A DNA stretch of 64,000 nucleotides from Candidatus Omnitrophota bacterium (GCA_029570205.1 JAKQSI010000032.1:47288-111287), one strand, 5' to 3'. Numbered from the stretch's first letter, positions 4,209 through 16,221 are shown. The notes: generated by a model not told the origin, from the sequence alone. Program-made: numbers and translations.

Positions 4209-4757
4209 GTGATCGATTCATGTCGTGTATTGGTTCTCAATTCAACTTACGAGGCAATTAACGTTTGCACGGCTCGTCGTGCCCTCAAGCTGCTTTTCTG
4301 CGGTATTGCCCATGCCGTTGAGGATTCCCCGCGTGTTGTTTTTTCTCCCAGTTCTCAGTTCAGACTGCCGGAGGTGATTCGACTTCGGCGGTATGTCCGG
4401 ATCCCGTATCGGCCCGTCCCGTTCTGCCGCAAGAACATCCTTCTGCGCGATTCGTTTCGTTGCCAGTATTGCGGTGTGCAGAAAAGCCCCGATCATCTGA
4501 CCATCGATCACCTGGTCCCGCTTTCGCGTGGCGGCACTCATGACTGGACAAATGTCGTCACCGCGTGTAAAAGCTGTAATCATCGCAAGGCCAGTTACCT
4601 GCCGGAGGAAGTTGGCATGAGGCTTTTGGCACGGCCTCGGACTCCGAATCTGCCGACTTTTTTGCAGCTGGTCCGCATTCAGGGCGAGGGACGTGCGAGT
4701 TGGCGGAAATATCTCTTCTTTGATTATACCGAATCGACGGAAGATGTTGCAGTTTGA
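4209..4757 (+). CDS. HNH endonuclease domain protein
   Basis: This 182-residue protein has an HNH/McrA-type zinc-finger nuclease motif at about residues 80-125. It includes the CQYCG knuckle, the IDHLVPLSRGG core with the catalytic histidine, and the CKSCNHRKA knuckle. The N-terminus (VLVLNSTYEAINVCTARRALKL) is typical of the widespread chromosomal HNH family found as single genes, whose cellular role is not settled; it is not an intron-homing arrangement here. It ends 11 nt before tRNA-Arg. It could belong to a restriction or repair function, but the sequence does not show that. Confidence 0.82.
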   Translation: MIDSCRVLVLNSTYEAINVCTARRALKLLFCGIAHAVEDSPRVVFSPSSQFRLPEVIRLRRYVRIPYRPVPFCRKNILLRDSFRCQYCGVQKSPDHLTIDHLVPLSRGGTHDWTNVVTACKSCNHRKASYLPEEVGMRLLARPRTPNLPTFLQLVRIQGEGRASWRKYLFFDYTESTEDVAV

Positions 4758-4768
4758 CACCCATTTAT

Positions 4769-4842
4769 GCGCCTGTGGCTCAGGTGGATAGAGCGTCGGT
4801 CTCCGGAACCGAAGGTCGCGCGTTCGAATCGCGCCAGGCGCG
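4769..4842 (+). tRNA. tRNA-Arg (anticodon CCG)
   Basis: The complete 74-nt cloverleaf can be folded by eye. The acceptor stem is GCGCCTG/CAGGCGC, the D arm is GCTC..GAGC, the anticodon stem TCGGT/ACCGA has loop CTCCGGA (anticodon CCG), the T stem is GCGCG/CGCGC with loop TTCGAAT, and the discriminator is G. CCA is not encoded. It lies between the HNH gene and the accessory block that begins at 5286, a position where integrating elements often insert, but I found no second copy of the tRNA 3' end in the window. Confidence 0.95.
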
Positions 4843-5285
4843 TGTTGATTTCCCTGGACTTACGACATTTTCCCCAGTGGGAGCGCCATCCGCTCCTTCC
4901 CGTTTGTCCCATTCAAGGCCCCCCTCGGAGGCGAGGTCTGTCTGTTGCTCTCTCCCGGAAGCCCCATCCGGCCCTTTTGGGGTGCGGGTTTCCGAGAGCG
5001 AGGGAGCGCTTCCCGCATTGCCATACGCGTTGTCCGGATTCGGATTGCATATCCCTGCCGCGCACTATCTGGACTGTCTTTATGGAGGTTCTTGTCCGTT
5101 GTATTACCAAGACACAGGCATCTTGCCGGTGAATATTACCCATTTCTCGCCACTTCGCTGTCTTCTGCCACTGTGCATTCTGACCGCGGCCAAGGCATTC
5201 GATCCGGCTTTCTTTCTGTAAATTCTTGAGAATATCGTTCGATAATATCCTTGGAGAGCGACACATCCCACATTGAGCCGCTTCA
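4843..5285. other. Gene-free stretch after tRNA-Arg
   Basis: No convincing gene was seen in these 443 bases. The short open frames on both strands lack ribosome sites and show no recognisable protein. A small palindrome, CACAGGCATCTTGCCGGTG, lies near 5115-5133 and resembles the dispersed short hairpins elsewhere in the window. I found no integrase fragment, although the location between a tRNA and restriction-modification genes would fit a decayed island edge. Confidence 0.5.
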
Positions 5286-5894
5286 TCATATAGCGGTTTC
5301 CTCCCGTTGCATTTCAAACAGGCCCGGACATTCTTCCTTACCGACGTGCTTCCCGTGGAGGCGCCTCAAGTCCACCACAGCTCCATATCGGAGAAACACC
5401 TTTTCAAAGAGATCATATCGATACCCCCAGTAGACCATGGCACAGGACATCGGCGCACCTTTGCCGCTATCTTGTCCATGAACAAGAAATCGAAGGCGCG
5501 TATCGTAGAGGAATGCAACAGCGGTTGCCGCACCCCATACGTGGAGTTTCCAGTGCCGGGTGTTTGTGGCTACGGGCACAAGCGCCAAGACTTCGGCGCC
5601 GTACTTTAGATGCGCCTGTTCGCATTTTCGAAGCCAATCACGAATGGTCGTCTCTCGCTGTCTATCTGCCCCATAGGGTGGATTAACGAATATCGTGCGG
5701 TAGTTCCAATCCGCCCTCAGCCCATCGATTTCGGGCAGGACGAATTCCACTCTTGCGTGCACGATTGAATGTTCATTGGAGCATGGATCCAGTTCGATGG
5801 TTCCGCCAAAGAAGTTGCGAATTGCGTTGACATACTTCGGCGGGGTGCACCAGTCGCGGCTAAGACACGATACATTGTTCCGTCCAGCAGTCAT
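5286..5894 (-). CDS. Phage-type N6-adenine DNA methyltransferase (Dam family)
   Basis: This is a 202-residue SAM-dependent adenine methyltransferase of the phage Dam type. Near the N-terminus the DWCTPP segment (residues 14-19) and ELDPCSN (34-40) are characteristic of the family, followed by the catalytic motif IV NPPYG at 71-75. The ATG at 5894 is preferred over the upstream TTG at 5915 because GGGAGG precedes it, although the spacing is short. It lies 122 nt downstream of a restriction-endonuclease-like gene on the same strand, so it probably was the protecting methyltransferase of that enzyme. As that gene is frameshifted, this may now be an orphan methyltransferase. Confidence 0.82.
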   Translation of the reverse strand: MTAGRNNVSCLSRDWCTPPKYVNAIRNFFGGTIELDPCSNEHSIVHARVEFVLPEIDGLRADWNYRTIFVNPPYGADRQRETTIRDWLRKCEQAHLKYGAEVLALVPVATNTRHWKLHVWGAATAVAFLYDTRLRFLVHGQDSGKGAPMSCAMVYWGYRYDLFEKVFLRYGAVVDLRRLHGKHVGKEECPGLFEMQREETAI

Positions 5895-6016
5895 GCGCCT
5901 CCCACCTTCCTCCAATCTTTGCCCGCCAAACGATGAAGATCGGACACGAGTTCCCTCAATCTACAGCCAGGCGGAGCAATCACATTGAACCAGGTTTCGA
6001 CCTGGGATTCGTGTGT

Positions 6017-7023
6017 TTAGAAATATTTTCGCAACGACTCGTCCGCAGCCATACCGATTCGAACCTTCGTGAATCTGTTCCGGCCCCCTTTTCCGGTATA
6101 GCTTGCGAGGAATGCCTCTCGCGCCGGATTCAACTCTCGAGTTGGATTCAGTAGAAGCCTGTCGATAAACCATGATAGGCCTTCATCCGTGAGGAAGATC
6201 AACCAGTCATAGGATTGGGCAAGAACCCGCAATTCTTTGTTGGGATTATCCGAGGTGAACCAATTCCCATGATTGCTGACAACACCGACAGTGAGGATGA
6301 ATTCACGGAGAAACTCCGGTCGTGAGCCTTCAATCACCTCCTTGAGGACCCGCGCATAGAGGCCGGTGTGGAAATTCCCGTCGGGCAGTTCGAGAACACC
6401 TTGGAATTGACCATTGCGCAAACGTACCTTTTGAAGGGCTGACACCATTCGAGCCACATAGGCCTTTGCTTGGCTTTCTCAATAGTCTGTGGCCCCTTTC
6501 GCATCCCTTGCTCCACCCCCACGCGCTTACATTCGAATATCGCGAATGGGTGATGAAAAAGATCACATACGGTCACACCACATTTGGAGGATCTTATCTT
6601 GTCGAGATGAGCCACGAGGATACCCGTACGGTCCTCTGCGAGTACGCAAGCGTTGCGCTTCACATGATCCGTCGATAGGAGTTGCACGGACTTGAACTCT
6701 TTTGCTTTCGGGAACGAAAAGTCTTTCTTGAGTTTCGCAGGTGTCAGCGGAAGACCGGCGACATTGAGCGTAACCGTCTGGCGTGTATGGATTGGATGAA
6801 GCGAAAATTCCACATTGTGCAGTATATCAGGATTGGCAAATTCGGGAATCGAACGCTCGATGACGATATGATCTCGGAGATCCCACGCAAGCAGAGTGTA
6901 AAAAGTCATCAGTTCAACAAGCGTGCCGAGCGCTCGTCCTGCCGCTTTCTTCCGGTCTGAGGCGTAGCCGAAAACGGATTCGGCCAGAGTCTTCTGAAGA
7001 ACATCTACCGATCTGAATGCCAT
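6017..7023 (-). pseudogene. Frameshifted PD-(D/E)xK restriction-endonuclease-like gene
   Basis: Two overlapping minus-strand frames together make one protein. The first part starts at ATG 7023 (GGGAG 8 nt upstream) and carries a probable nuclease centre: D154 followed by FAIFECKR with E164-x-K166. Near 6465-6472 the frame must slip by one (-1) to continue into a ~146-residue second part ending at 6017. Without the slip the first frame runs on into unrelated residues to 6334. The pairing with the downstream adenine methyltransferase and the position after ftsH suggest a Type II restriction enzyme. I do not recognise the family. A sequencing error or programmed frameshift cannot be excluded. 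Confidence 0.6.
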
Positions 7024-7058
7024 GTTGCCCACTCCCGGTCTTTGTTCGTTCTACCCTG

Positions 7059-9697: not shown

Positions 9698-9737
9698 CCT
9701 CACCCCGGCCCTCTCCCGGAGGGAGAGGGGGATTGGG
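9698..9737. repeat. Dispersed palindrome CCCTCTCCC/GGGAGAGGG
   Basis: The stem CCCTCTCCC GGA GGGAGAGGG is preceded by CTCACCCCGGC. It is one of a family of similar imperfect palindromes between genes of this window (others near 13740, 19785, 21740, 24510 and 32530). This copy lies between the stop of the small membrane protein and the end of the convergent terminase gene and could act as a bidirectional terminator. Confidence 0.75.
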
Positions 9738-9801: not shown

Positions 9802-11715
9802 TCAGAAAAACGCGATCTCCGGTGGGGGCGAGACAGGAGTTCCCGCAAGGTTGAGATGCGCATAAAGCGCCCACGCAAGAGCATAGACCGTATCGTCATG
9901 CACTGTCCGGGAACCTTCCGGGTGCCCGAACGAGAACCGTCCGGTCGCCTCACGTCGATACTGAAAGGCCTTCAGTTCGGAGATCAGAGTCTCTGAGACA
10001 TCGAGCGGAATCTCGATCTCTTTCCGACGGAACAGGTTATACAGCGTATTGAAAATAATTTGCTGGGTGGCAGCGGTCGGCGCGATCAGTTCCGTTTGCA
10101 CCCCCAAAGCGGTCAGGTAGTCCGCAAGGCTTTTGCCCTGGTATTGCTCGACAGCCGCGTGAGCAATGCCGTACCTCTCCACCAGACGCGCGGCCTCACG
10201 GTGGATTTCATTGGTATCGGCGCGGGTCAGACGGACAACATCGATGACCCGATATCGTAATTGCGTTTCTTCCTCGGATTGCACATAAGGCCACGGAAGA
10301 TTCTCCTCGGCTTCCATAGAGACTCCATACCTCGCCAGGACCGCCAACGCCGATGCATCATGGGAATCGTCGTAAGACAGGGCCAGGTCCGCGCCGAGGG
10401 TGGCCATTTCTCCCTCGCCGAGTTGTTGTGCCGCGTGGGGCACAATCATCGGGTCAATCAACCCGGCAAACAGGCTATGGCTACCCTCTACCCACTCCGC
10501 CATCACCTCGGCGCGGAACTCCAGTTCTGTGCGTGACCGTCTCAGCCGTTCGATTTCTTCTTCCCGAATTTCCGGATTGACTGTACTGGGCCATTGAAAA
10601 GAAATGATGTCATCCCTCTTCTCCTGGCCGTCCCGGAATAACGGGTACACCCAGGAATGGACCGAGGACGGAGAAGAGACAATCGCCATCCGCCCCTGGT
10701 CTTTCTCTGTAGTAATCATGGCGTACTCGACAGCGGCGCGGATTTCCTCGCCCTGTTCCATATAACAGGCCTCATCCAGGATTACGGAAAGGCTGCCGGT
10801 CGTCTCATCGGATTTGCACGGATGATACCCGCGAATAGTCGCTGCTTTTGCAGGCAGGAAAATGATTCGAGACTTGTTCCGGAGAGTGATCCGTTCGGCG
10901 CCGGATTCGGTAACAAATTTTTTCAAGTCCGATGAGTCCAGCAGATCGAGCATCCTCTTGCCGAATTCCGAGCACATCCGCACCCCCGAGGACACAACCA
11001 GCACAGTGTGATTGGATTTACGGCAGGCGGTATAGAGCGCGAATACCCTTGCCGCCATCGATTTGCCCGCGCCGCGACCGGCCATCATGATCACGACCCG
11101 GTGAGGCGCATTGCAGAACTCCACCTGGTGAGGGTACAGAGTCACCCCAAGGGCCTCACGCGCGAAGGTCGCGGGATCGGCCAACCGACCCAAAGGGATG
11201 CTATCGGCTTGTTCGTTGATTTTCGACGTCGTATGCTGCTCGATTTCCTTGAGGAGCCGCATCAGGATGGTGGTCTGCTGCGCGCGGGTTTTTCGAAGCG
11301 CATCACGTTCTTTCGGTTCGAGGCCGCCCCAACAGAGTTCCCGGTCGATATCGGCGAGGGTCTGTTCGGTGGCGGCGAACTGTTCAATCAGCGGCAGTAA
11401 GAGCGCGTTGCATCCGGTCATCTGTTCGAGTTCGCGAATGCGGGTTTGCAAGGGTACCTCATGGTCCATTCCACCTTGCTGCGCCGGCGGTTGCAAGCGA
11501 AGCCGGATGAGTCGCTGCCCGCGTTGCAGCCTGTATTCCACAATCCGTTCGCTTGCTTTCAGAATCACGAGTGTGCGGCCGATGGTGCGTCGATCTCGTT
11601 GGATCTCTCTGGCCAGTTCGCGGATATGAAACTGGACCATGCCTATCTCGTCGCAATGGCTGTTCAGCCATCGGCTGACAAGGGTTTCCGTTGTGGGGGC
11701 TTGTTTTGTTCTCAC
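9802..11715 (-). CDS. Terminase large-subunit-like ATPase/nuclease with N-terminal HTH
   Basis: Counting from GTG 11715 (AGGAG 11 nt upstream), this 637-residue protein has three parts. A winged-helix-like segment at ~25-75 (HIRELAREIQRDRRTIGRTL) is followed by a helical linker. The terminase motor ATPase has Walker A AGRGAGKS (212-219) and Walker B SVILDEACY (~311-319). A C-terminal RNase-H-like nuclease begins with GADLALSYDD (~442) and ends with HDDTVYALAW. Terminases package phage DNA, using a separate small subunit for DNA recognition; here the HTH may be a fused small subunit. An ATG at 11868 would add 51 residues of poor support. No portal, capsid or integrase gene is nearby. Confidence 0.78.
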   Translation of the reverse strand: MRTKQAPTTETLVSRWLNSHCDEIGMVQFHIRELAREIQRDRRTIGRTLVILKASERIVEYRLQRGQRLIRLRLQPPAQQGGMDHEVPLQTRIRELEQMTGCNALLLPLIEQFAATEQTLADIDRELCWGGLEPKERDALRKTRAQQTTILMRLLKEIEQHTTSKINEQADSIPLGRLADPATFAREALGVTLYPHQVEFCNAPHRVVIMMAGRGAGKSMAARVFALYTACRKSNHTVLVVSSGVRMCSEFGKRMLDLLDSSDLKKFVTESGAERITLRNKSRIIFLPAKAATIRGYHPCKSDETTGSLSVILDEACYMEQGEEIRAAVEYAMITTEKDQGRMAIVSSPSSVHSWVYPLFRDGQEKRDDIISFQWPSTVNPEIREEEIERLRRSRTELEFRAEVMAEWVEGSHSLFAGLIDPMIVPHAAQQLGEGEMATLGADLALSYDDSHDASALAVLARYGVSMEAEENLPWPYVQSEEETQLRYRVIDVVRLTRADTNEIHREAARLVERYGIAHAAVEQYQGKSLADYLTALGVQTELIAPTAATQQIIFNTLYNLFRRKEIEIPLDVSETLISELKAFQYRREATGRFSFGHPEGSRTVHDDTVYALAWALYAHLNLAGTPVSPPPEIAFF

Positions 11716-11987
11716 GGAAATCGTTTCTCCTATTATTAGAGGGAATCGGCGCAGAAAGGGGGATTTTGATGCGCGGGTGGCCGGTGTGATGAATCGAGAC
11801 GTAGCGGAAGGATGGATACGGGGCGGGGTATTGAAATACAAACCGTCAATGACATTGAATGCCTTCATTTATGGGGTGAAGCAAGCACAACCGAGCATTT
11901 GAAGAACGGTGGATGGACGCTTCCGGGAAACCATGCAAGAATGAATTGTGTGAAGGGAGTAACCGACAATGAAATGTGAGTATCACA
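11716..11987. promoter_or_regulatory. Divergent control region between terminase-like and methyltransferase genes
   Basis: This is about 270 nt between divergently oriented starts. It contains AGGAG for the terminase-like gene (11727-11731 on the minus strand) and GGGAG at 11955-11959 ahead of the methyltransferase. An AT-rich patch near 11731-11740 could hold a promoter element. The minus frame stays open upstream to 11868, so part of this stretch could be coding if the earlier ATG is used. Confidence 0.4.
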
Positions 11988-13013
11988 ATGCAAAGAAAGC
12001 TTTTTGACGATCCGGTCTGCTCCATTCCGCCGAGAAATGGCGAGACCCGCGAACCTTATGGTCGGATTGATGCTGATCCGGAGACCCATGCCAAATTACT
12101 GGCCTATTGTCGGTTACGGCCAGGGGAAGTCTGGTTGGATTCGGAGAAAGGGCATCGGGTGGGTGTGCTGGATGCAACGAATGTCGAACATGTCGCAGGA
12201 GTTGTGGGGGAAGATAGACCCGCGCTTTTCGTAAACGATCCGCCTTACAACGTGGCTGTCGGGAATTCGAATACGTGCAATCTTCCAAAGACGGAACTAT
12301 CCGCCTACATGGTTTTTTCGAGAAAATGGGTGGAGAACTGCGCCAGAGTTATGGGCGATAACGCCCACTTTTACGTTTGGCTAGGGGCTGATGTTCGCGA
12401 CAATTTCCAGCCTCTGCCGGATTTCATGATTATGATGCGTGATATTCCTCAACTGAAGCCGCGCAACTTTATCACACTGCGCAACCAGAGAGGCTATGGA
12501 ACCCAGAAAAACTGGATGTGGGTGAGACAGGAACTACTTCATTACATCCATGGCGATCCCGATTTCACCGTGCAGTACACCAATATCCCAAAGATCCTCC
12601 GAGGTTACTACAAGAACGTGAACGGCAAGATAACGGAGAACATAGAGCGCAGTAAATCGGGTAATATCCGTCCCGGCAACGTGTGGGTAGATGTGCAACA
12701 GGTGTTCTATCGTATGGAGGAGAACGTTCCGGGATGTTACGCGCAGAAGCCCCTCAAGGCGATCGAGAGAATTCTGCTGTCAAGCAGCAAGGCCGGCGAT
12801 TGTGTCTTGGATTGTTTCTCCCACTCAGGAACCACACTGATCGCAGGAGAGAAACTTGGCCGACGGGTTGTGACCTGCGATATCGATCCTGTATTTGCCG
12901 AACTGACGATCAGGCGGCTTGAGCACTACCGAAAAACCGGAAGAACGGGATGGCAATGGCATAATCCGTTTCCTGAGATGGAGCAAGTCTATGACGCAGC
13001 GGCAACTGCGTGA
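11988..13013 (+). CDS. Beta-class site-specific DNA methyltransferase
   Basis: This 341-residue amino-methyltransferase has the motif order of the beta class: catalytic DPPY first (residues 84-87, in VNDPPYNV), then the SAM-binding motif near the C-terminus (CFSHSGTTLIAGEKLGRRV, ~276-294), with CDIDP following. Products are N6-methyladenine or N4-methylcytosine; DPPY favours adenine. An in-frame GTG at 11976 is an alternative start; neither start has ideal ribosome-site spacing. Its 3' end overlaps the start of the next gene, which looks like its cognate endonuclease, so the two are probably translationally coupled as a Type II restriction-modification pair. Confidence 0.82.
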   Translation: MQRKLFDDPVCSIPPRNGETREPYGRIDADPETHAKLLAYCRLRPGEVWLDSEKGHRVGVLDATNVEHVAGVVGEDRPALFVNDPPYNVAVGNSNTCNLPKTELSAYMVFSRKWVENCARVMGDNAHFYVWLGADVRDNFQPLPDFMIMMRDIPQLKPRNFITLRNQRGYGTQKNWMWVRQELLHYIHGDPDFTVQYTNIPKILRGYYKNVNGKITENIERSKSGNIRPGNVWVDVQQVFYRMEENVPGCYAQKPLKAIERILLSSSKAGDCVLDCFSHSGTTLIAGEKLGRRVVTCDIDPVFAELTIRRLEHYRKTGRTGWQWHNPFPEMEQVYDAAATA

Positions 13014-13710
13014 ATACCTGGACGCATTCATCAGAACACTCGGACAGCAGGACAGAGATTTCCTTGATGCTCGTCTGCAATCCCTCGCTTCCGTATTCCC
13101 GTTCAACGAGTACGAGTATATCCTTATGTTTCTTCGGGATCGGTCGGTGATCTCCTTCCAAGAGTATGAAGATTTGAGGAACAGGTATGTCTCGGCCAAC
13201 CGATACTTGAACCTTTTTGGCCTTGCTCCTCGGATATTCGGCCAGATCTGGGGCGAACAGCATCTCAGGGATCTGGATTCGAGGTTCAGGAAAGCGGATA
13301 AAACTGTCGATACGGATCATGAAGGACAGTATGATCTGTGGATCGAAGGTGTCCGCGTTGAAGTAAAGGCGGCGCGGGCAATCGACACGAAAAAACGTGG
13401 AGACTTGGTTTCTAAGGCCCTGAGAACGGATTCGGAACGCCCATTCTGGATGAATTTCCAGCAGTTGAAATTGGATATCTGTGATGTGTTTGTGTTCCTG
13501 GGTGTGTGGGTGGACGCCATCTGCTATTGGGTGTTGTCCCACAATGATGTGAAGAACAGTCCTTACCTCAGTCACCAGCACAGGGGAGGCATCGAGTATC
13601 AGATCGGGATCAACCACAAGAACATTTCCGCGTTTGAGAAGTATCTTGTTGACCCCCCTCATGTCGCGGAAAAAGTGATCGCACTTGGCCAGCGGAATGG
13701 AAGGCGATGA
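12991..13710 (+). CDS. PD-(D/E)xK restriction-endonuclease-like protein
   Basis: This 239-residue protein starts at ATG 12991, with GGAG 8 nt upstream, 23 nt inside the methyltransferase gene; a start at 12919 would add 24 residues and increase the overlap. A nuclease core is visible: D115 in YDLWIEG followed by E124-x-K126 in VRVEVKAARA. That is the D-ExK pattern of Type II restriction enzymes. I do not recognise the specific family or target. The overlap with a site-specific methyltransferase is the main argument for function. It is intact, unlike the similar pair at 5.3-7.0 kb. Confidence 0.68.
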   Translation: MTQRQLREYLDAFIRTLGQQDRDFLDARLQSLASVFPFNEYEYILMFLRDRSVISFQEYEDLRNRYVSANRYLNLFGLAPRIFGQIWGEQHLRDLDSRFRKADKTVDTDHEGQYDLWIEGVRVEVKAARAIDTKKRGDLVSKALRTDSERPFWMNFQQLKLDICDVFVFLGVWVDAICYWVLSHNDVKNSPYLSHQHRGGIEYQIGINHKNISAFEKYLVDPPHVAEKVIALGQRNGRR

Positions 13711-13731
13711 ACCCTGCGCAACCACAGGGGG

Positions 13732-13880
13732 ATTGCCGCCCCCTCTCCCGGCGGGAGAGGGTTGGGGTGAGGGTCTTCTTGCGTTGAATCGGCACTCTAT
13801 CGTTGTATGATTCCTGCGGCACCCACAGGCGGATTGCCCCCGCGCAAGAGGGGGATTAATCCGGCATGATTGCCGGACCA
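13732..13880. repeat. Dispersed palindrome and hairpin after the endonuclease gene
   Basis: CCCCTCTCCCGGCGGGAGAG followed by GGTTGGGGTGAGGG (about 13740-13775) matches the dispersed palindrome family in opposite orientation to the copy at 9.7 kb. A second hairpin, TCCGGCATGATTGCCGGA, lies at about 13860-13877. The two family copies bracket the terminase/methyltransferase/endonuclease block. Confidence 0.65.
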
Positions 13881-13963
13881 TAAATCACGGTTAAAATGAC
13901 CGCACCTTGGGCGAGGGAATACGGTGTTGGGAAGGAATTTCTGTTCTGGCTACTCAATCATCG

Positions 13964-14365
13964 ATGAACCAAAGCACAAGGAATGCGATCTTCGCTATTG
14001 TGATAGTCGTCACAATCGTGGCTGTCCCTTACGGGTGGCTCTTTTTTGGCCCCATACTCAAAGACTATCTACAGCGCACGGAATTCAATTCAGAGATCTG
14101 GAAAGACACAAAAATAGCACATAAGCCGCCGTACCCTCGTATCAGAATAGTGGATGACCTCCTTCGCCGGAATATGCGGATGGGCATGAACCGGGAGGAG
14201 GTTGTGGTGTTGCCTGGTGAATGCGACCAGAAACGTTATGGGGAGGATTATTTTGTATACTTCCTGGGGCCGGAACGATCTTTAATTCCTCTTGATTCGG
14301 AGCGGCTGATAATGAAATTAGATGCGAACGAGAATGTTTGCGAGGTTTTAATCCGTACTGATTAA
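13964..14365 (+). CDS. Small membrane-anchored hypothetical protein, BamE-like C-terminal pattern
   Basis: This 133-residue protein has one N-terminal membrane helix (FAIVIVVTIVAVPYGWLFF). Its C-terminal domain contains 'DDLLRRNMRMGMNREEVVVLPGECD' split over a helix and turn, then FLGPER and a closing strand. The 'GM.R.EV...LGECD' pattern resembles SmpA/OmlA/BamE-like lipoprotein domains, but there is no lipobox cysteine. I chose ATG 13964 because it places the helix at the N-terminus; upstream in-frame TTG starts exist and the ribosome site is weak. The function is unknown. Confidence 0.55.
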   Translation: MNQSTRNAIFAIVIVVTIVAVPYGWLFFGPILKDYLQRTEFNSEIWKDTKIAHKPPYPRIRIVDDLLRRNMRMGMNREEVVVLPGECDQKRYGEDYFVYFLGPERSLIPLDSERLIMKLDANENVCEVLIRTD

Positions 14366-14404
14366 GCGTCCAGGTTGGGAAAGATGGGCCTGCCGGGCGC
14401 TGAA

Positions 14405-14644
14405 TCACCTCCTCTCGACCAAATGCAGATTTGCCGCGACCGGAATTTCAAACAAGTCCCGGCGCATGAGACGAGAGGAAAAGAACAGGACTTCCAGGTT
14501 CTCGACCTCACCGGTAGTCGGATTCAAACGTGCAATCACATCGTCGTTCAGCTCTTCGGATTCCTGCTCTGGGTATGGGGGAATCTTGTCGATATGAAGA
14601 ATGTCGCCTTCTCGGTCATATTTGAATGTCAGTTTCGTGTCCAT
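14405..14644 (-). CDS. DUF2283 protein, probable antitoxin partner
   Basis: This 79-residue protein matches the DUF2283 family, with the characteristic KLTFKYDREGDILHIDK start and 'DDVIARLNPTTGEVENLEVL' core (~residues 30-50). Its ATG at 14644 lies 16 nt inside the 3' end of the upstream nuclease-like gene, so the two are translationally coupled. DUF2283 genes are often paired with small nuclease-fold genes, which suggests an antitoxin or immunity role, but that is inference. It is followed by convergent genes. Confidence 0.75.
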   Translation of the reverse strand: MDTKLTFKYDREGDILHIDKIPPYPEQESEELNDDVIARLNPTTGEVENLEVLFFSSRLMRRDLFEIPVAANLHLVERR

Positions 14645-14955
14645 TCGGTTTCTCCTGCCGTCAAATTCTGCGTGCGATATGCGGTGACAATCCAATGCCG
14701 AGTTCGTTCCGCCTTCTCCGTGATGACAACGACAACAACGTACTTCCCACCGGGAAGGCTGTCGAACCACCGCGCGAACAGACATGCGTCAGAGCAGCGT
14801 AGACTGCGTCGAACACGGTCGGGATCTTCCAACGTCCCCGCGATGAGTTCATAGCACCTGGGAAGCATATCCGGATGTCTTTCAACAATGTGTTTCATCC
14901 GTTCATCAGTCAATGCAACTTGACTGCCCAGATATGGACATGACAGAAAAGGCAT
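14629..14955 (-). CDS. PBECR-type nuclease-fold protein, probable toxin
   Basis: This 108-residue protein has the pattern of the phage barnase-EndoU-ColicinE5/D-RelE-like (PBECR) nuclease fold. The segment VALTDERMKHIVERHPDM (about 13-30) holds a conserved histidine pair, the central strand is GGKYVVVVVI, and WIVTAYRT lies near the C-terminus. Members are predicted RNases. It overlaps the following DUF2283 gene by 16 nt, a layout typical of toxin-antitoxin or addiction units. An AT-rich region with TATACT/TATATT upstream (about 14970-14985, minus strand) may be its promoter. Toxicity has not been shown. Confidence 0.65.
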   Translation of the reverse strand: MPFLSCPYLGSQVALTDERMKHIVERHPDMLPRCYELIAGTLEDPDRVRRSLRCSDACLFARWFDSLPGGKYVVVVVITEKAERTRHWIVTAYRTQNLTAGETEWTRN

Positions 14956-15062
14956 TCTGAACCTTCATTTTATCAATATAGTATATCAGCAAATAGACCA
15001 GGAGATCGGAAGCGTTTTCTGGAGTACGGTCCGGGGAGGGATACCGTGGTGTTCCGTGCCCC

Positions 15063-16037
15063 CTACTTCTTCAGCTCCTGCATCCTTTCATACATCTGTC
15101 GAAGCGAACCGGCAGCGCGAACATCGCTTCCGGAAATGAGGATTCGATACCCGTCTTTCAACCGTTGCTCGACCGATTTCTCATCCGCCCCGACAATCAA
15201 CGGCACATGGTGCTTCTTGCAGGCTTCGCTGACGGCCTGAAATCCTTCCATCACCTCCGGATGTTTCATATCCCCATCCACGCCGCAGCTGAAACTGTAA
15301 TCGTAAAGCCCGAAAAAGATCGCACCGACACCGGGGACAGACAGAATCTCGTCGATGTTCTTCCTGCCCTCTTTGTCTTCAATCATCAGGATTGCCAGCA
15401 GATCGCCGTTCGGGTCCAGCGGCCAGACATCGGCGCGGGACACGTATTCCTCCGAGGTCAATCCCCACAGATAGGCGCACATGTCCGGTGAGGCCCCCCG
15501 TTTGCCTTTCGGCAGAGGCTGCGGATCGCCTTTCGGCTGGGGATACCGGCACGCCGAAATAACCCGCTGTGCGTCCTTCGCATTGGTGCAGTGCGGCACA
15601 ATCACCCCAAACGCCCCGGCATCCAAAACCTGCTTGATATACGGTTCAATCGGACCGGCGGCATCGCACGGAATCCGCACCCACGGCGCAATGCTCGGCT
15701 GCAAACTCCCCGTCTCCAGGACCTCCCGTTTTGAATGAAACGCCATCAGGATCGTCTGCAAGCGCTCGATATCGAACGGCAGATGCTCCATGTCGATCAA
15801 CACATAGTCGATCATCGGGGTCTTGAGGCCGGTATCGCGGTCTACATGCGCATTGGACTCCACCAGCCCGACGGCCGTATAAATCGACATCGACTTAAAC
15901 CAGCTTCCCAGTGCGACTTGGTTCCGCTCCAGCTTCACGATTACCTTGTTCAAATGCTCGTCTGCCTGTCCCAGTACCGGGACCGATATTGCGGTCAGGA
16001 CTGCCGAAATCACGATATGCATTCTCTGAATCAACAT
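15063..16037 (-). CDS. Secreted HpcH/HpaI aldolase/citrate lyase-family protein
   Basis: This 324-residue protein has a TIM-barrel of the HpcH/HpaI family (2-keto-3-deoxy acid aldolases). It includes VLIDMEHLP, APWVRIP, GAFGVIVPH, the metal-site segment ILMIEDKEG and GAIFFGLYDYS. The family is normally cytoplasmic, yet this protein begins with a signal peptide (HIVISAVLTAISVPVLGQA), predicting export. A second ATG at 16022 would leave the signal intact. The predicted Glu/Asp metal ligands are present, so an active enzyme is plausible, but the substrate is unknown. It is divergent from the DUF3604 gene, with 184 nt between the starts. Confidence 0.78.
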   Translation of the reverse strand: MLIQRMHIVISAVLTAISVPVLGQADEHLNKVIVKLERNQVALGSWFKSMSIYTAVGLVESNAHVDRDTGLKTPMIDYVLIDMEHLPFDIERLQTILMAFHSKREVLETGSLQPSIAPWVRIPCDAAGPIEPYIKQVLDAGAFGVIVPHCTNAKDAQRVISACRYPQPKGDPQPLPKGKRGASPDMCAYLWGLTSEEYVSRADVWPLDPNGDLLAILMIEDKEGRKNIDEILSVPGVGAIFFGLYDYSFSCGVDGDMKHPEVMEGFQAVSEACKKHHVPLIVGADEKSVEQRLKDGYRILISGSDVRAAGSLRQMYERMQELKK

Positions 16038-16221
16038 GGGTTCGTATCTGCCTCGTCTTCCTGAGAATCACCCAGTACGATACTTGCATCCACCTTGATG
16101 CGCACGGTTCATACCGTGCCTACTGCCGTCCGTTCGGTCCATGTCCGTCCTCACTCTGGGTTACAAAACCCGACGATTTGTGAAAAAGTATCGGTAGTTG
16201 GACCGCAGGAGGTTCCTCACA

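Follow-up and report, generated by a model that had tools for sequence, protein, structure and literature searches.

A stand-alone large terminase of Candidatus Omnitrophota as the probable packaging motor of a dispersed gene transfer agent-like system

We analyzed a 64,000-nucleotide stretch of DNA (hereafter the window) from a Candidatus Omnitrophota bacterium (GCA_029570205.1, JAKQSI010000032.1:47288-111287), which carries a stand-alone gene for a large terminase (TerL-like) protein on the minus strand at 9802..11715. In our reading, this protein is probably the packaging motor and nuclease of a gene transfer agent (GTA)-like particle encoded at scattered chromosomal loci. An earlier note on this DNA had proposed that the terminase may serve DNA transfer or defense, or be a phage remnant; the evidence favors DNA transfer, by way of capsid parts encoded elsewhere, and disfavors both a defense unit and a remnant.

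The terminase comprises 637 aa when read from the GTG at 11715, within a longest open reading frame (ORF) of 688 aa that extends to 11868. This GTG is the likely start, as it is preceded by AGGAG and the same start is found in the congener G001 in a start-site comparison. The ORF at 9802-11868 (minus strand) matches Pfam Terminase_6N at 1.2e-11, and the TerL family phrog_2 of PHROG covers its residues 74-671 at 2.4e-35. An ATPase motor domain (10459..11181, minus strand) contains Walker A (GRGAGKS, 11059-11079), Walker B (LDEA, 10765-10779), and motif III (SSPSS), and is followed by an RNase-H-fold nuclease domain (9829..10416, minus strand) with acidic residues in GADLALS, VEQYQG, and HDD. 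Across seven aligned homologues (alignment A1), the core residues of Walker A (AGRGAGK) and Walker B (LDEAC) and the acids of all three nuclease motifs are invariant, and motif III is nearly so. An AlphaFold2 model built from the seven homologues (mean pLDDT 61) matches the T4 gp17 (E 8.6e-14), Sf6, D6E, and HK97 terminases over both ATPase and nuclease domains; the modeled nuclease domain resembles that of G20c TerL (Z 18.9, 2.7 Å over 176 residues) and the modeled ATPase domain that of T4 gp17 (Z 15.4). Start codon, motifs, profile matches, and fold thus agree with the 637-residue motor-nuclease that the earlier note had described.

The terminase lies apart from other phage genes, as had also been noted: tblastn searches of the window with the portal and capsid genes described below returned no match, and PHROG scans of the ten flanking ORFs gave neither structural nor integrase matches. 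In an integrated prophage, the genes for head, packaging, tail, and integration would adjoin one another, whereas here portal and capsid are on other contigs. Prophage residence of this TerL family was rejected, since no close homologue was seen inside a prophage; homologues confined to full prophages were the pattern that the earlier note had named as refuting its reading. Different TerLs of the phylum (G005:C39, G009:C548, and G012:C22) do adjoin a portal-like ORF, identified as portal by inspection. A viral origin by close sequence was likewise rejected, because TerL relatives reached at most 28% identity in IMG/VR and at most about 29% in phage records. An apparent second terL copy in the window's own genome (G000:C74, L009) was discarded as well: its contig is 99.8–99.9% identical to the congener G002, so that bin contamination mimics a second gene.

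Genes for the missing particle parts are found elsewhere in the same genome (G000, whose terminase contig is C16). We sampled 14 genomes of the phylum, nine of them from the window's order, with families f1, f2, f4, and f5 as given in the genome catalogue. PF04860 detected no portal in the window's own genome, but a family profile, reached from a faint portal match in genomes of the sister family, did detect one, in single copy at C86:3492-4679 (phrog_3753, 8.8e-48). This portal family (440 aa, phrog_3753) is single-copy in 12 of the 14 genomes. In f4 and f5 it lies in a cluster of head and tail genes that encodes, among others, a major capsid protein of 354 aa. This protein matches phrog_3922 (G012 homologue, 6e-83) and Phage_capsid_4 (G000, 1.6e-11) and is encoded by a single-copy gene in 13 of the 14; the capsid profile found no match among PDB sequences. 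The window's own genome carries one copy of the capsid gene at C51:47051-48112, in a cluster at about 46.5–54.9 kb that holds capsid and decoration genes and, after the capsid, connector-like, Dit-like (phrog_33, 8.7e-14), phrog_16951, LamG/S74 spike-like, and endolysin-like genes. The cluster is flanked by ftsK on one side and by a class II ribonucleotide reductase gene on the other (L105 4948-20000), with the same flanking order in G001 (L106). Portal and capsid share one cluster in f4 and f5, are separate in f1 and f2, and in G006 lie on one contig about 13 kb apart. The sole phylum genome without the capsid, G009, also lacks the portal and this TerL. As an observation in its own right, a conserved phrog_16951 protein (L087 13585-14298 and homologues) accompanies the capsid or the portal at almost every locus examined, chromosomal or viral.

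The TerL profile detected the terminase in 8 of the 14 phylum genomes, all in the window's order, and the gene was seen without truncation in seven of the nine genomes of that order; the G002 copy is split over two contig ends. Within the genus it lies beside ftsH and shows a ratio of nonsynonymous to synonymous substitution rates (dN/dS) of 0.17–0.30. The terminase is under purifying selection and is a conserved chromosomal gene. Its contexts in sister-family genomes are unrelated, comprising VIT1 and AIR-synthase genes, a Gfo/Idh/MocA gene, a JAB-domain gene, and, by inspection, ribosomal-protein-like and single-strand-binding-protein-like genes. For portal and capsid, dN/dS is 0.054 and 0.053, respectively, compared to 0.07–0.08 for ftsH. 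Of the host groups, f1, f2, f4, and the order are recovered with the capsid, f1, f2, and f4 with the portal, and f1 and f2 with TerL; G003 pairs with G004 in the trees of both capsid and portal, and the portal-tree fork uniting f1 with f5 is weakly supported (82/77). Around the portal, G003, G005, and G006 have a series of five other genes in common, and a homologue (40%) of the G000 gene that lies divergent from the portal occupies the same place in G005, a position shared between f1 and f2. Capsid, portal, and TerL thus appear to be mostly vertically inherited and to co-diversify with their hosts.

This pattern can be set against the definition of GTAs, which lists six criteria (PMC9662315), three of which we examined by sequence. 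The proteins appear to derive from caudoviricetes, judging from TerL (phrog_2), portal (phrog_3753), capsid (phrog_3922/Phage_capsid_4), and the Dit-like protein (phrog_33). The genes are endogenised at multiple loci, with TerL on C16, portal on C86, and the capsid cluster on C51, all among chromosomal-type neighbors, and the trees and portal synteny fit mostly vertical inheritance with host co-diversification. The definition further includes packaging of mostly random host DNA, a particle too small for its own genes, and delivery to other cells (PMC9662315).

Three known GTAs offer comparisons by description. The Brachyspira GTA (BhGTA/VSH-1, Brachygtaviriformidae) resembles the window's system in a single-copy TerL outside the structural cluster, host co-diversification, and a likely dispersed genome (PMC9662315), but terL alone is reported outside its cluster, whereas here the portal is separate too. 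In alphaproteobacterial type I GTAs such as RcGTA (Rhodogtaviriformidae), head and tail genes of phage origin likewise occupy several places in the host genome, five in RcGTA (PMC9662315). RcGTA keeps TerL (g2) in the core cluster, while in the window's system TerL stands apart. Faecalibacterium FpGTA I/II are two-locus GTAs with short-tail-like genes and no complete prophage; their TerL, portal, and capsid form one operon, in contrast to the three loci found here (PMC12946183).

Related particle genes extend beyond the phylum. Among 372 sampled genomes of other phyla, 15 carry the capsid, all 15 also carry the same portal, and the two are often unlinked. Capsid, connector, TerL, and portal are contiguous in G307; in G168, TerL accompanies the capsid and the portal follows about 18 kb away; in G309, portal and TerL stand together, apart from the capsid; and in G020 each of TerL, portal, and capsid is on a separate contig, with TerL adjoining phosphate-transport-like genes (by inspection). 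The lone TerL of G020 is 38% identical to the linked TerL of G307. These genomes offer a case of stepwise dispersal, from linked (G307) through partly split (G168 and G309) to fully split (G020 and the window's order). Viral relatives with capsids about 39–44% identical (IMG/VR L178, L182, L205, L219, and L248, and the fecal phage MT835508) are mostly ordered TerL-portal-t237-capsid and branch as a clade of their own in the capsid tree. These phages and prophage-like clusters share the head module but differ in keeping it contiguous with TerL and tail genes. Separately, the capsids of two further IMG/VR entries, L176 and L177 (IMGVR_UViG_3300005915_000248), group with the chromosomal copies of the phylum. 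No TerL or portal was seen in L177, which may therefore be a piece of chromosome listed among the viruses, and both entries may represent GTA-like chromosomal fragments catalogued as viruses.

We tentatively propose that these genes represent an ancient, undescribed GTA family, conserved throughout this uncultured phylum and also present in several other bacterial phyla, whose genes have repeatedly drifted to separate loci. A literature search of open-licence papers found no description of this system. Recognized GTAs come from few lineages and mostly as linked clusters; if our proposal is true, it widens the range of host-controlled gene transfer and accounts for lone terminases and portals without prophages. 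It would also mean that prophage finders, which seek linked genes, miss dispersed systems or that fragments of them are filed as short viruses.

We infer that the TerL, portal, and capsid loci work together, with random packaging of host DNA, release of particles, and delivery of their DNA. The capsid cluster and the portal would assemble a prohead; the terminase would cut host DNA without a phage-specific site and then dock on the portal; its ATP hydrolysis would fill the head, with a second cut once the head is full. Cell lysis would then allow the particle to bring its DNA fragment to a recipient. By analogy with studied GTAs (PMC9662315, PMC6854486, PMC12946183), the most likely role would be to package host DNA into small heads by the headful mechanism.

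Several observations weigh against this reading. The separation of TerL from the capsid cluster (at least 65 kb) and from the portal (at least 56 kb), measured from contig ends, is a lower bound because all the genomes are fragmented assemblies. TerL neighborhoods are not kept between families, TerL evolves faster than portal and capsid, and the capsid-positive G005 and G012 also carry terminases of ordinary prophages. G004 lacks this TerL and G006 has only a C-terminal remnant of it, although both keep capsid and portal, and f4 and f5 carry capsid and portal without this TerL type, so that the association is not strict; either another motor serves these genomes or the TerL link is looser than proposed. 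The same gaps lend some weight to an alternative in which capsid and portal are GTA-like but the motor is another, unrecognized protein, TerL having been captured separately for repair, recombination, or nuclease defense: in G004, G010, and G011 no convincing TerL accompanies the capsid and portal (none, or marginal matches near 1e-4 to 1e-3), and TerL loci lack conserved neighbors. We consider this unlikely, as the protein retains every motor and nuclease residue of packaging TerLs, PF03237 finds no TerL in the window's own genome besides this A1-family member (contaminant contig aside), and in other phyla a TerL is part of this capsid-portal cluster or adjoins the portal. Less probable still is that the loci are old prophage remnants decaying independently and without present function. 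The truncated TerL of G006, the absence of TerL from G004, and the lack of any integrase or replication gene near the pieces examined would fit such decay, but all pieces are under purifying selection (dN/dS about 0.05 for capsid and portal) with intact frames, are single copies, and keep synteny across genera, and in real prophages of the phylum (L060, L061, and L063) TerL and portal are adjacent.

A further alternative concerns the genes next to the terminase in the window. On one side it adjoins ftsH; on the other it is divergent from a beta-class N6/N4 DNA methyltransferase gene (11976..13013, plus strand; Pfam N6_N4_Mtase 2e-24, DPPY before FxGxG) and an adjacent type II restriction endonuclease gene (12991..13710, plus strand; PADLOC REase_II 3.7e-45, D-x-ExK motif), whose start at 12991 is inferred from MTQRQ. 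The two are adjacent, as in a type II restriction-modification (R-M) system, and their matches and motifs bear out the intact pair described in the earlier note; the endonuclease sequence found no useful structural relative in PDB. Also confirmed are the palindromes said to bracket the three genes, a REP-like left copy at 9698..9731 (34-nt arm) and a right copy at 13739..13772 that is 88% identical and inverted relative to it. Perfect matches to CCCTCTCCCNNNGGGAGAGGG in the 64 kb occur just in these two palindromes, and five matches are found with up to three mismatches against 0.08 expected. Adjacency, divergent orientation, and the bracketing pair would suit a single defense or mobile unit of TerL, methyltransferase, and endonuclease, but we regard such a unit as very improbable. 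The other terminase loci examined yielded no homologue of the endonuclease, nor any close one of the methyltransferase, and in the congener G002 a 3.4-kb stretch with a gamma-glutamyltranspeptidase gene and one other gene takes the place of the segment equivalent to 11768-14402. The R-M genes have a G+C of 0.50–0.515, below the 0.566 of TerL, and PADLOC has no match for TerL. The earlier note had asked whether the three-gene layout recurs and had taken its restriction to one genome as refuting; the homologue survey found it at none of the other terminase loci examined, and a conserved terminase/R-M unit was rejected. The R-M pair looks like a chance neighbor of the terminase, and we judge both genes to stand outside the particle system. 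As a separate observation, G002 and the window differ sharply upstream of terL over 11768-16137: the window has the R-M pair and an HpcH aldolase gene where G002 has the gamma-glutamyltranspeptidase gene and its companion. This suggests an exchange hotspot, which contains a REP-like palindrome.

The N-terminal part of the terminase was described in the earlier note as an HTH (helix-turn-helix)-like region of a fusion between small (TerS) and large terminase subunits. Such a fusion would join a DNA-binding HTH of TerS type and an oligomerization coil to TerL. In the predicted structure, both catalytic domains match solved TerLs, and the HTH region has no significant fold match. Residues 52-123 (11500..11715, minus strand) appear winged-helix-like, with elements in the order H-E-H-H-E-E, in a low-confidence model (pLDDT about 35–44 only); Pfam matches are sub-threshold (MarR, 0.044 in G001), and a Foldseek search with the segment returned no match at E ≤ 0.001. 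By alignment, the segment is confined to the window's genus and missing from sister-family homologues. A coiled-coil-like helical hairpin before the ATPase domain (11230..11451, minus strand) is modeled more confidently (pLDDT up to about 89) and has an alignable, weakly conserved counterpart in sister-family homologues (alignment A1). We therefore treat the fusion as a hypothesis, favored by the order of elements and weakened by the low pLDDT, sub-threshold profiles, and missing fold match; the N-terminal extension may play a TerS-like part. TerS proteins of GTA type lack an HTH (PMC6854486).

Other features of the window lie outside these loci. On the minus strand at 14405-14955, a gene for a DUF2283 protein overlaps a PBECR2 (Barnase/EndoU/ColicinE5-like nuclease) gene in a toxin-antitoxin-like layout; the region is also present in the congener G002 (L026, about 5500-6160). 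An HNH endonuclease gene at 4209-4843 (plus strand; phrog_16726, 7e-34), with weak IscB/Cas9d similarity, lies directly 5' of tRNA-Arg(ccg). At 5286-7032 (minus strand), a second DNA methyltransferase gene (phrog_111, 5e-26) lies beside overlapping ORFs at 6017-6457 and 6334-7032, one of which has an ECK motif; this region is perhaps a second, possibly frame-broken restriction system.

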